A stretch of 42,930 nucleotides of DNA, taken from contig CAHJWM010000043.1 in assembly GCA_903642325.1 (NCBI GenBank), positions 1 through 42,930 of the forward strand, in the 5' to 3' direction. Both the position numbers and the translations under genes were made by a program. Under the pieces are notes generated by a model, which worked only from the letters and a program-made list of their open reading frames with translations, did no database searches and was not told the origin of the DNA. Positions 10,975 to 15,007 of this stretch are shown here, piece by piece (position 1 is the first letter of the stretch; each line of letters starts with the position of its first letter). The DNA is from Myxococcales bacterium. Its GTDB lineage: Bacteria > Myxococcota_A > Polyangia > Polyangiales > Polyangiaceae.

Positions 10975-11628
10975 TCAGTGTTTGTCTCGATCAACCCCCG
11001 GATGACCGCCCTCACCCGGCTCATGCCTGGAGTTCCCCGTCAGCCGGGAGCCATCACGACCCGGAAAGCCCATCAGGATGTCTTTCTCGAAGATGAATTG
11101 CTCGCGCGAGTCGTACGGGGCGGCATGCACCCCGGTGTCCATGCGAATGGCGTCTACCGGGCAGGCCTCGACGCAGAAGCCACAGAAGATGCAGCGCAGC
11201 TCGTCAATCACGAAGCGTTTCGGGAAGCGCTCGTAACCGCGGCGCGGATCCCCCTCCGGGTACTCACCTGCTTCGATGTGAATGCACTGCGCGGGGCAGG
11301 CGGTGGAGCAGCACAGGCAAGCGACGCAGCGGGGCGCGCCGTCCTCACGCTGCGTCAGCCGGTGCACGCCGCGGAAGCGCGCCGGATAAGGCCGTTTCTG
11401 CTCGGGGTACGAGATGCAGTTGATGCCGTCTTCGATGCCTTCGAGCACCGGGTCGTTGCGCTGTCCAAAGGCCATCTCTTTCGTGTTCTGAAAGAAATGC
11501 TTCATGGTGATGCCGAGACCCTTGGCGATCTCGGGAATGTACGTCTGAACGGAGGCGCTGCGCTGCGGGCGCGGCACTGGAGCACCGACGACTTGGTTCG
11601 GACCTAAAGCGACAGTCTCGTTCTTCAT
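10975..11628 (-). CDS. nuoI: NADH-quinone oxidoreductase subunit I
   Basis: The 8-Fe ferredoxin-like subunit of complex I, carrying clusters N6a and N6b between the peripheral arm and the quinone site. Two Cys motifs are visible, CVACLCCSTACP and CIFCGFCVEACP. The 217-residue protein starts at ATG 11628, overlapping the nuoH stop by four bases (ATGA). An upstream reading would run into nuoH. The N-terminus carries MKHFFQNTKEMAFG, and a hydrophilic Gly/His/Asp-rich tail ends the protein. It is the last nuo gene here: nuoJ-N do not follow and gatB comes next after 111 bp. Confidence 0.95.
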   Translation of the reverse strand: MKNETVALGPNQVVGAPVPRPQRSASVQTYIPEIAKGLGITMKHFFQNTKEMAFGQRNDPVLEGIEDGINCISYPEQKRPYPARFRGVHRLTQREDGAPRCVACLCCSTACPAQCIHIEAGEYPEGDPRRGYERFPKRFVIDELRCIFCGFCVEACPVDAIRMDTGVHAAPYDSREQFIFEKDILMGFPGRDGSRLTGNSRHEPGEGGHPGVDRDKH

Positions 11629-13409
11629 GCTGACATCCGTGAGCTGCGCGTGCCGCCCGCCGCGATCGCGTATTGCGCCGAAGAGGAGGACAAGGTCTGG
11701 CGTTTGTGCACTGGTTTCACCAAGAACACGATGAAGTAAATCAGGCCGCCCAGGCCGCCGATGGCCAGGAACGCCTTCGTACAATCAGCCAGAAGCGCCA
11801 TGAATTGGCCCACCTCTGGCCCAGCCGACACGATCGCCATCACGATCAAGCCGGTGGCCAACACGTTGGCCAGTGAGGCGGGCAACAACTTGCGCCAGCC
11901 GAGCCGCATCAGCTGGTCGTAACGGAAGCGCGGCAGTGTCCAACGGATCATGAGCTGCAGCCAGCACAGGGTGAGGGTCTTCAGCACGAAGCCCAGCGCG
12001 CCGACCACGACGACCAGCACGTGGGGCAACCCCTGTTCGAACAGCACGGTGCCTCCGATCGCGATGTGAACGCCATCGCGATACAGAAAAGGGAGATCCC
12101 AACCGCCCAGAAAAATGGCCGACATCAGCCCGGCGGACGTGACGACCGCGATGTACTCCGCGAAAAAGAACATCGCGAACTTCATGCCGGCGTACTCGGT
12201 GAAGTAGCCGGCCACGATTTCGCTCTCGCCTTCCGGAATATCGAACGGAATGCGCTTCGATTCCGCAACGGAGGCAGTAAAAAATAGAAAGAAAGCGACG
12301 GGCTGCACGAAGATGCCCCAGGCGTTCTGCGACTGCCACTCGATCATCTTGTCGACGCGCAGCGTTCCGTAAACCATCACGGCGCCCACCAGCGTGAGGC
12401 CCATGGTCACCTCGTAAGAGACCATCTGGCTCGCCGCGCGCACGCCGCCGAGCAGGCTGTATTTGTTGTCGCTCGCCCAGCCCGCCAAAGCCGCGCCGAC
12501 GATGCCTGTGCCAGCCAATGCAAAGAAGTACAGGAGGCCGACGTCCAGATCGACGACTTGTAGACGGAGCGAGCCGGCGGCTTGGCATACGCCGTCACGC
12601 GGCATGGAGCTCATCAGGCTGCCGAGACCTCCGTTTTTGATCGTAAAACAGAGCGTGTCCCCGAACGGGATCACGGCCATGACGACCAACGCCGGGAAGA
12701 ACGAGATGAACGGCGCAAGGCTGTGCAGCAACCGGTCCGCGTTGGGCGGAATAAAATCTTCCTTGAAGATCGTTTTCAGTCCGTCCGCCGCCGGGTGCAA
12801 CAGCCCGGCCAAGCGCAGACCGACGCGCGGCTCATTGCGGATGCTGAATGCGGCGTAGGCCGCACCGCCCAGCACCGAGAAAATCAGAAGCCCGGCGCCG
12901 CAACCGTAGCCGAGGGCGCGGATCTGCGGGCCGAACGCGGAGTCATTGAGCGCAAGCCCCACGAAAAGAGCCAGAAAATGAGCAATTAGCCCAGCATAAA
13001 AGATGCGGCGCGGGTCCCCGATGCCACTGAGCCAGCCATCGAGGCTGCTCTGAGGGCCCCGTGTTTGTACCTTGCCGGCGACCACCGCGAAGGTCAGCCA
13101 AGTGAACAAGATGCCGAGCTGGCTGAACAGCATGGCCCGTTGCCCGAGCTCTTCGGGCGGAGGCTCGAGCTTGAGCAGCGCGAATGCCACCGCGCCGACC
13201 ACGAGCAGAGCAGGCCCCAAGGCCAGCCCCTGGGCGACGAACGTCGGGATCCAAGCCACGGCACGGTTCGGGCCCACTCGGTCCTGAATCATGGCGCCCT
13301 GGCGGCGATCCGCCCAGGTCAAAATCACGGCCACGTTCATGGCGAACATCACCACGACGAAGGCCTTGAGCACGAACAACAGAAACGAGATCAGGGTGAG
13401 CGACATCAT
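11625..13409 (-). CDS. nuoH: NADH-quinone oxidoreductase subunit H, with large membrane insertion
   Basis: The membrane subunit that helps form the quinone-binding cavity of complex I. Conserved parts are QDRVGPNRA (42-50), GLLHPAADGLKTIFKEDFIP (202-221), QVVDLDVGLLYF, the GWASDNKYSLLGGVRAASQMVSYE block, and FDIPEGESEIVAGYFTEYAGMKF. At 594 residues it is far longer than the usual 320-440. About 148 residues (51-198) with several hydrophobic segments sit between RVGPNRA and GLLHPAADG, normally adjacent. A second added loop (about 250-281) carries two cysteines, and an extra hydrophobic segment lies near the C-terminus. The frame is continuous. The ATG at 13409 overlaps the nuoG stop by four bases; a second ATG follows immediately. 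Confidence 0.93.
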   Translation of the reverse strand: MMSLTLISFLLFVLKAFVVVMFAMNVAVILTWADRRQGAMIQDRVGPNRAVAWIPTFVAQGLALGPALLVVGAVAFALLKLEPPPEELGQRAMLFSQLGILFTWLTFAVVAGKVQTRGPQSSLDGWLSGIGDPRRIFYAGLIAHFLALFVGLALNDSAFGPQIRALGYGCGAGLLIFSVLGGAAYAAFSIRNEPRVGLRLAGLLHPAADGLKTIFKEDFIPPNADRLLHSLAPFISFFPALVVMAVIPFGDTLCFTIKNGGLGSLMSSMPRDGVCQAAGSLRLQVVDLDVGLLYFFALAGTGIVGAALAGWASDNKYSLLGGVRAASQMVSYEVTMGLTLVGAVMVYGTLRVDKMIEWQSQNAWGIFVQPVAFFLFFTASVAESKRIPFDIPEGESEIVAGYFTEYAGMKFAMFFFAEYIAVVTSAGLMSAIFLGGWDLPFLYRDGVHIAIGGTVLFEQGLPHVLVVVVGALGFVLKTLTLCWLQLMIRWTLPRFRYDQLMRLGWRKLLPASLANVLATGLIVMAIVSAGPEVGQFMALLADCTKAFLAIGGLGGLIYFIVFLVKPVHKRQTLSSSSAQYAIAAGGTRSSRMSA

Positions 13410-15007
13410 TCGGCTCCGAGCGACGCACTATCGGGAGCGACGCTACGTGGGGCGGCGGGGGCCATGGCGGCTCGAAGCTCCGTGAGCTTTTTCCAGCCGA
13501 GCGGTTTACCTAGCAAGGCGGCGAGCTCCGAAATCAGCCGGAACGCGGGCTGGGAAGAGCCATGCGGGTGGATGGCTCGCTCGCTCTCTTGGCTCATGCC
13601 CTTGGCATTGACGAATGTGCCGTCGGCTTCGGCCCAGCTGCTGGCCGGTAGCACCACGCTCGCGCGATCGACGACCGCGCCCTCGTGGGTGGCGATGGCG
13701 ATCAAGCTTCTCACTTCCGCCAAGGCAGCAGCGCCGCTACCCGTGGGCGTGGCCGAGCCCAAGGCGATAACGGTTGAGGCCTTGCCAGCGCGAATAGCCT
13801 CGACGAGCTCGACGAAGCTCTTCAGCCCGCTCGCCTTGCCGAGCGCGGCGACGCCGGCCGAATTTGGGTTCTTGTCGGGATGGCGGAGAATGTCGTCCCC
13901 CTGCCCCGCTGGGCGCCCGCTTTGATAGATGTCCGAAAAGCCGAGGGACTTGGCGAGCGACAGCAGCGCGAAGTTGTCTTCGTTCGAGTGCTCCGCGCTC
14001 AGCACCACGGCCGTGGACGCGGGACCAGCGGCGACGAGCAGCTGTGCCGCTGTGGCGAGCGCGGCGGCGACCGTTGCCGGGCGACCGGCGACGCGCGCTT
14101 CGAGCACGCGGCCCTCGTGAATTCGGCGGTAATCGAGCATGCCGTCGTCGCACATCCAAAACTTGTTCACGGCTAGGTTCTCGCGCGGCCGGTAGCGGTA
14201 CACCTTCTGATCGCGCGGATCGAAGTCCGAGAAGGAATTGCAGCCGGTGGCGCAGCCGACACACACGGTCCGGCGTGAGCGCAAGAACCAGACTCGGGCC
14301 TTGAATCGAAAATCGATGGACGTGAGCGCGCCGACCGGACACACGTACTCGGTCATCAGGGTGTACGGGTGATCGAGCTGGCGGCCGGGAGCGACGACGA
14401 TCTCGTTCAAGTTCCCGCGCTCACGCACGCTGAGCACCGGATCTTTGGCAAGCTCGTCCGACACGCGCACGCAGCGCGTGCACACGATGCAGCGCTCCGC
14501 GTCGTACACGATCGTCGGGCCAAACACGACGGCCTTGGGCTTGTGCACCGGCTCGTCGCGCATGCGCTTCTTCGTGCCCTGATGCTCGAGCCAGTAGTCC
14601 TGCAATCGGCACTCGCCGGCCTGGTCGCAGATCGGACAATCCACCGGATGATTCAGGAGCAAGAGCTCCTGCACCGAAGCTCGCGCCACGTCGACGTGTT
14701 CGCTGGTTTGACTCTTCACCACCATCCCGTCGGCCGCCGCTTGCTGGCAGGAGGGCACGAGCTTGGGCTTCTTTTGAGGCAGGTACTCTTGCTTGATTTT
14801 GTCCCAGGCGAGCACGTCGAGCAGCATGGCTGGACGACCCGGCGGGGGCATCAGCTCGACCAAGCACATGCGGCAGTTGGCCGCCACCGACAGCCCCGCA
14901 TGCCAGCAGTAGTGCGGGATGTCGATGCCCGCCTTTTGCGCAGCGCGGATGATGGTCTCACCCGGCTCGAACGGGATCTCGCGGTCGTCTAGCTTGAAGT
15001 TAGGCAT
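13406..15007 (-). CDS. nuoG: NADH-quinone oxidoreductase subunit G, short form with N7-type cluster ligands
   Basis: The Fe-S subunit of the complex I peripheral arm. In order: 2Fe-2S ligands C34, C45, C48 and C87; the H120/C124/C127/C133 set (HPVDCPICDQAGEC); C173, C176, C179 and C223; and a fourth set C249, C252, C256 and C286, spaced like the N7 cluster known from Escherichia and Thermus NuoG. The molybdopterin-oxidoreductase-like region is shortened, giving 533 residues against roughly 780-910 in classical NuoG. A segment with VDRASVVLPASSWAEADGTFVN is retained, so this is a compact form rather than a broken gene. The ATG at 15007 lies 52 bp after nuoD, and the stop overlaps nuoH. Confidence 0.93.
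   Translation of the reverse strand: MPNFKLDDREIPFEPGETIIRAAQKAGIDIPHYCWHAGLSVAANCRMCLVELMPPPGRPAMLLDVLAWDKIKQEYLPQKKPKLVPSCQQAAADGMVVKSQTSEHVDVARASVQELLLLNHPVDCPICDQAGECRLQDYWLEHQGTKKRMRDEPVHKPKAVVFGPTIVYDAERCIVCTRCVRVSDELAKDPVLSVRERGNLNEIVVAPGRQLDHPYTLMTEYVCPVGALTSIDFRFKARVWFLRSRRTVCVGCATGCNSFSDFDPRDQKVYRYRPRENLAVNKFWMCDDGMLDYRRIHEGRVLEARVAGRPATVAAALATAAQLLVAAGPASTAVVLSAEHSNEDNFALLSLAKSLGFSDIYQSGRPAGQGDDILRHPDKNPNSAGVAALGKASGLKSFVELVEAIRAGKASTVIALGSATPTGSGAAALAEVRSLIAIATHEGAVVDRASVVLPASSWAEADGTFVNAKGMSQESERAIHPHGSSQPAFRLISELAALLGKPLGWKKLTELRAAMAPAAPRSVAPDSASLGAE

Follow-up and report, generated by a model that had tools for sequence, protein, structure and literature searches.

We identify an insertion of about 148 residues in NuoH (NADH-quinone oxidoreductase subunit H), encoded within a 42,930-nucleotide stretch of Polyangiaceae DNA, hereafter the window. 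NuoH/ND1 is among the most conserved of bioenergetic membrane subunits, and the passage of quinone through its narrow entrance is unsettled. The insert is real and well bounded. It is confined to a single family (Polyangiaceae-type) as an inherited lineage trait, and other parts of the order show related states, which answers the question of lineage that the first-pass annotation had left open. We propose, with a probability of about 0.5, that it serves as an accessory module built into the heel of complex I, its four helices on the TM1-AH1 hairpin flanking the quinone entrance, a function that we infer by analogy with heel accessory subunits, the Thermus TMH9 helix and NdhL.

The nuoH gene occupies 11625..13409 of the minus strand as a single unbroken frame of 594 codons with an ATG start, and is single-copy in the genome. 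Its 594-residue product matches the Pfam family NADHdh (PF00146) with an E-value of 2.4e-99 and 332.9 bits against a cut-off of 27, and retains the core residues R.GP, ADG.K and ESEIVAG.F.EY, among other invariant columns of our alignment A1; membership in PF00146 predicts that the inserted protein reduces quinone and pumps protons. The minus strand of the window reads nuoA-B-C-D-G-H-I, followed by gatB-like and lipA-like open reading frames, and the remaining complex I genes, with NuoF, NuoJ and three antiporter-type subunits, lie on contig C77 of the same genome. NuoG (13406-15007) is short, at 533 residues, with only a partial molybdopterin domain. A NuoL-like antiporter subunit on contig C77 (L226:4742-7327) has 861 residues, where 600-700 are usual for such subunits, and further complex I membrane subunits may be enlarged too.

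The first-pass annotation had described an insertion of about 150 residues at 12816-13259, separating two motifs, RVGPNRA and GLLHPAADGLK, that are adjacent in ordinary NuoH. Our analysis bears this out: the interval corresponds exactly to residues 51-198 (12816..13259, minus strand), and the same motifs are 4-5 residues apart in the other phyla scored and 9-14 apart in uninserted Polyangia. RVGPNRA itself spans residues 44-50 (13260..13280, minus strand), immediately before the insert, and R49 and A50 are conserved in 48/48 inserted proteins. Uninserted relatives read RVGPNRA-VIKIGKFELRLAG-LLHP, and inserted relatives RVGPNRA-VVYLP[...]DGKVPLRLAG-LLHP or similar. When NuoH was compared with the cyanobacterial NdhA chain 6hum_A by phmmer, residues 13-48 aligned to chain positions 31-66 and residues 201-254 to 71-124; residues 49-200 are therefore extra relative to the solved NdhA, apart from 4 residues. 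By these gap lengths, most NuoH proteins lack the insertion.

An artefact, whether a misassembly, a misalignment, or ordinary NuoH helices taken for an insert, is a practically negligible explanation. The 594-residue frame is continuous, and homologous inserts of nearly the same length and with alignable sequence recur in dozens of independent assemblies, far more than chance would give, which upholds the earlier view that this is not an assembly break; its flanks are contiguous in the solved NdhA; and the core fold is complete without it. In the AlphaFold2 model the NuoH core superposes on E. coli NuoH (7z7v_H) with Z 33.6 and an rmsd of 3.1 over 320/323 residues, all aligned without recourse to the insert, which rules out normal NuoH helices in disguise. 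The model thus predicts that the canonical NuoH core fold is intact despite the insert. More broadly, the protein shares core fold, motifs and the usual nuo neighbours with the NuoH/Nqo8/ND1 family (E. coli 7z7v_H, NdhA 6khi_A and Thermus 4hea_H; Z 30-34 over about 320-340 residues), and differs from NdhA, its best solved match, by the four-helix module between TM1 and AH1: some 148 residues stand where NdhA has a 4-residue gap.

The several hydrophobic segments noticed in the initial reading appear as four peaks with 19-residue Kyte-Doolittle means of 1.84-2.34, and AlphaFold2 confidently predicts a four-helix bundle in the insert. The full-length NuoH model has a pLDDT of 82 overall and a pTM of 0.84, with blocks at pLDDT 86-97 across residues 51-200. 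Two strands, at residues 52-55 (13245..13256) and 195-198 (12816..12827; these and all following coordinates on the minus strand), enclose TMa at 56-80 (13170..13244), also delineated by hydropathy; TMb at 85-117 (13059..13157), which contains the invariant Trp104; a short helix at 122-130 (13020..13046) in the positively charged middle loop, followed by a conserved Pro133-Arg134 motif; TMc at 133-153 (12951..13013), which contains Arg134, Gly140 and His144; and TMd at 160-189 (12843..12932). Folded alone, the insert gave a pLDDT of 92.9 and a pTM of 0.83, with the four membrane helices recovered and strands again at each end of the bundle (E4-8 and E148-152 in the isolated fold). Because strands flank the bundle, we read the module as an extension of the tip of the hairpin that joins TM1 (residues 6-41, 13287..13394) to AH1 (residues 200-215, GLLHPAADGLKTIFK, 12765..12812), at which the canonical core resumes according to the NdhA alignment and AlphaFold2. 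How the bundle packs against the core is uncertain, since its position is drawn from connectivity and AH1 itself reaches a pLDDT of only about 61-64.

Loop charges follow the positive-inside pattern: the middle loop averages 4.6 K+R and the end 2.8, whereas the two outer loops average 0.69 and 0.60. The module is therefore predicted to have both its ends in the cytoplasm, with NuoH topology kept. The charged and polar residues within the helices bear on another possibility, namely that the inserted bundle provides an extra ion or proton path, for which His144, conserved within TMc, and Arg134, at the edge of that helix, would be candidates. Acidic residues, however, number 0.02 per protein in TMa and 0.00 in TMc, with none conserved in TMb or TMd, and neither sequence nor fold searches found any likeness to antiporter-type helices; we regard such a path as very improbable. 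Outside the insert, AlphaFold2 places a C-terminal helix at residues 531-564 (11718..11819), the likely equivalent of TMH9 of Thermus Nqo8 by analogy (cf. PMC8762328). A pair of cysteines at residues 254 and 275, in an enlarged TM2-TM3 periplasmic loop (window 12585-12650), is conserved in 44/53 and 43/53 aligned NuoH proteins, respectively, and could form a disulfide.

In solved complex I the quinone tunnel opens where TM1, AH1 and TM6 of this subunit cross (PMC8799541), so an insert in the TM1-AH1 loop adjoins the quinone-entry elements, as had been suggested from the sequence. The softest collective motion that opens the tunnel involves TM1, AH1, TM2 and their connecting loops (PMC8799541), and AH1 is reported to protrude into the nanodisc (PMC8357420). 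We propose that NuoH of a Polyangiaceae lineage gained its four membrane helices as a module on the tip of this hairpin. By computation, the even number of helices and the cytoplasmic chain ends keep the canonical topology, the module folds compactly, and the core fold is preserved. The bundle would pack in the bilayer beside the heel, next to the lateral quinone entrance. There it may act as a covalent accessory subunit, shielding the TM1-AH1 gate and making it more rigid, and may shape local lipid and menaquinone access much as separate heel subunits do in other versions of complex I.

Known systems supply the analogy for this accessory role. Mitochondrial ND1 is ringed at the heel by accessory subunits of one helix each (PMC8762328), and in the chloroplast NDH complex the accessory subunit NdhL helps to shape the plastoquinone pocket (PMC12170339). 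NDUFA13, NDUFA3, NDUFA1 and NdhL all place membrane helices near the quinone site of ND1 or NdhA, as we propose for the NuoH module; these are separate proteins, whereas the module is covalent and in one frame with NuoH. A closer parallel in this respect is Thermus Nqo8, which has an extra C-terminal helix, TMH9, at the site of eukaryotic NDUFA13 (PMC8762328): both proteins have a C-terminal helix, and both carry extra membrane helices in the core subunit instead of a heel accessory subunit, although Nqo8 adds one helix at its C-terminus and the inserted NuoH adds four at the quinone entrance loop. Lineage-specific structures in Paracoccus and mycobacteria, at the domain corner, are thought to stabilise a closed resting state (PMC11522691). 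The helices could instead be a docking module that binds a partner, either another respiratory complex or a lineage-specific subunit, to form a supercomplex. The hairpin would put the module on the heel's outer face, which is in keeping with docking, as are conserved residues in the insert; no candidate partner can be named, however, and some relatives have complex I without the insert, and we consider docking distinctly unlikely.

Of the 183 genomes of the order, 64 match the insert-specific profile A3 strongly, every one a member of family f1 with its match at NuoH; five additional matches are weak. Homologous inserts in this family are 144-160 residues long and occur in many of its genera, including all seven other searched genomes of the window's genus. 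About 40 percent of f1 genomes have no strong match to the profile; nearly all NuoH read from these have a gap of 13-15 residues, the exception being a 70-residue form, L022. Among 377 genomes sampled across the phylum, the profile found no further family with the insert. The insert is dispensable for complex I activity as such, because many members of the family lack it.

Unique NuoH proteins of the order fall into 41 with a loop of 13-14 residues, 14 with 70-105 residues and two predicted helices, and 50 with 144-160 residues and four predicted helices; the same loop measures 9-13 residues in other orders of the class and 4-5 in the other phyla scored. The two-helix inserts (70-105 residues), from families f3, f4, f5 and f9, share with the four-helix insert its insertion point, hairpin ends and even helix number, but are about half its size. 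Given that two-helix, larger or no inserts occupy the same site across the order, the TM1-AH1 loop is an order-wide insertion hot spot at which helices are gained almost always in even numbers. Two proteins from two genera of family f3, L159 and L170, have 190 and 280 residues at this loop, in which hydropathy suggests, with uncertainty, five and six helices. In one genome spread over two contigs (G154), an inserted NuoH (L218) appears split over two frames, by a frameshift or a sequencing error.

By the searches made here, the insert is without a recognised relative outside NuoH of Polyangiaceae. Comparison with Pfam and NCBIfam gave no consistent family match, and comparison with the PDB sequence set, heel accessory subunits included, gave no match, a result that a distant relation could escape. 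An unusually long ND1, that of Euglena (8iuf, 670 residues), surfaced in the phmmer search with the whole NuoH. The insert queried alone was found only inside NuoH, and no free-standing copy was detected among the 183 genomes of the order and the 377 of the phylum; of the weak profile matches outside NuoH, the two inspected proved to be an alanine-rich protein in G191 and, in G074, an unrelated membrane protein. An internal duplication of a two-helix unit was likewise rejected, as the halves of the insert fail to align (hhalign probability 0.3). Foldseek with the insert alone returned no match with E under 0.001 (best E 0.14), and the best VIA fold match, to a long helical protein (Z 7.4, rmsd 7.0, 138 aligned residues), is in the range of common arrangements. 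Among open-access papers, we found nothing relevant on NuoH insertions in myxobacteria or on extra NuoH helices, and the nuoH passages of a 2008 Anaeromyxobacter paper mention alignments and no insert; with no account in the open-access literature searched, the insert is a newly described variant of NuoH.

A broader reading, which we offer tentatively, is that a covalent module for quinone gating or access evolved here from no recognisable source, and that the order samples 0, 2, 4 and possibly 6 helices at this position. If so, the order would constitute a natural experiment on quinone entry. Relatives in the one family that carry or lack the four helices at this gate, together with intermediates elsewhere in the order, offer a way to test gate mobility and lipid surroundings. 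The NuoH insert further suggests that membrane helices of an accessory kind can originate within a core subunit and need not come as separate subunits.

Sequence conservation within the insert weighs on whether it does anything at all. The loop tip may simply be permissive, such that hairpins, once inserted, are kept with little or no function in a near-neutral or constructive neutral process. The range of helix numbers at this one site, from 0 through 2 and 4 to more, with 11 changes of loop state on the tree across the order, fits this alternative, as does the faster evolution of the insert (mean pairwise distance 0.68, versus 0.42 for the core). Insert dN/dS also exceeds that of the core in every one of seven pairs; two of these, both very close, have values of 0.59 and 0.96, compatible with weak constraint. 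In the other five pairs, however, insert dN/dS is 0.04 to about 0.36, well below 1. Moreover, Trp104, Arg134 and Gly140 are invariant across 48 inserted sequences from divergent genera, Pro55, Pro66, Gly118, Pro133 and His144 are present in 94 percent or more of them, and the insert has been kept in 64 genomes. We therefore judge mere tolerance unlikely, though better placed than docking, and favour the built-in accessory module.

Pairwise distances of insert and core are correlated (r 0.85; 0/2000 permutations as high), as expected from vertical inheritance, and the insert has been inherited with nuoH from early in the history of the family. On trees built from the core with the insert removed, the four-helix state takes two changes and the two-helix state eight. 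A tree that unites the four-helix proteins and the shortened L022 in a single clade is not rejected (p-AU 0.461), and one gain, two gains, or a gain and a loss are thus all possible. In L022, as read by eye, the first and last helix of the module seem to be kept and the middle pair lost, and such a paired loss fits a topological requirement that helices come in even numbers. A common origin of the two-helix and four-helix inserts is unproven at the sequence level, because the two-helix forms require eight changes and the alignment of the two insert profiles covers just the shared flank (27 columns). One further inserted NuoH, on a contig labelled Actinomycetota (palsa_739; L031:2771-4552), is 88% identical to that of the window and nested among Polyangiaceae; its genome is probably mislabelled or misbinned.
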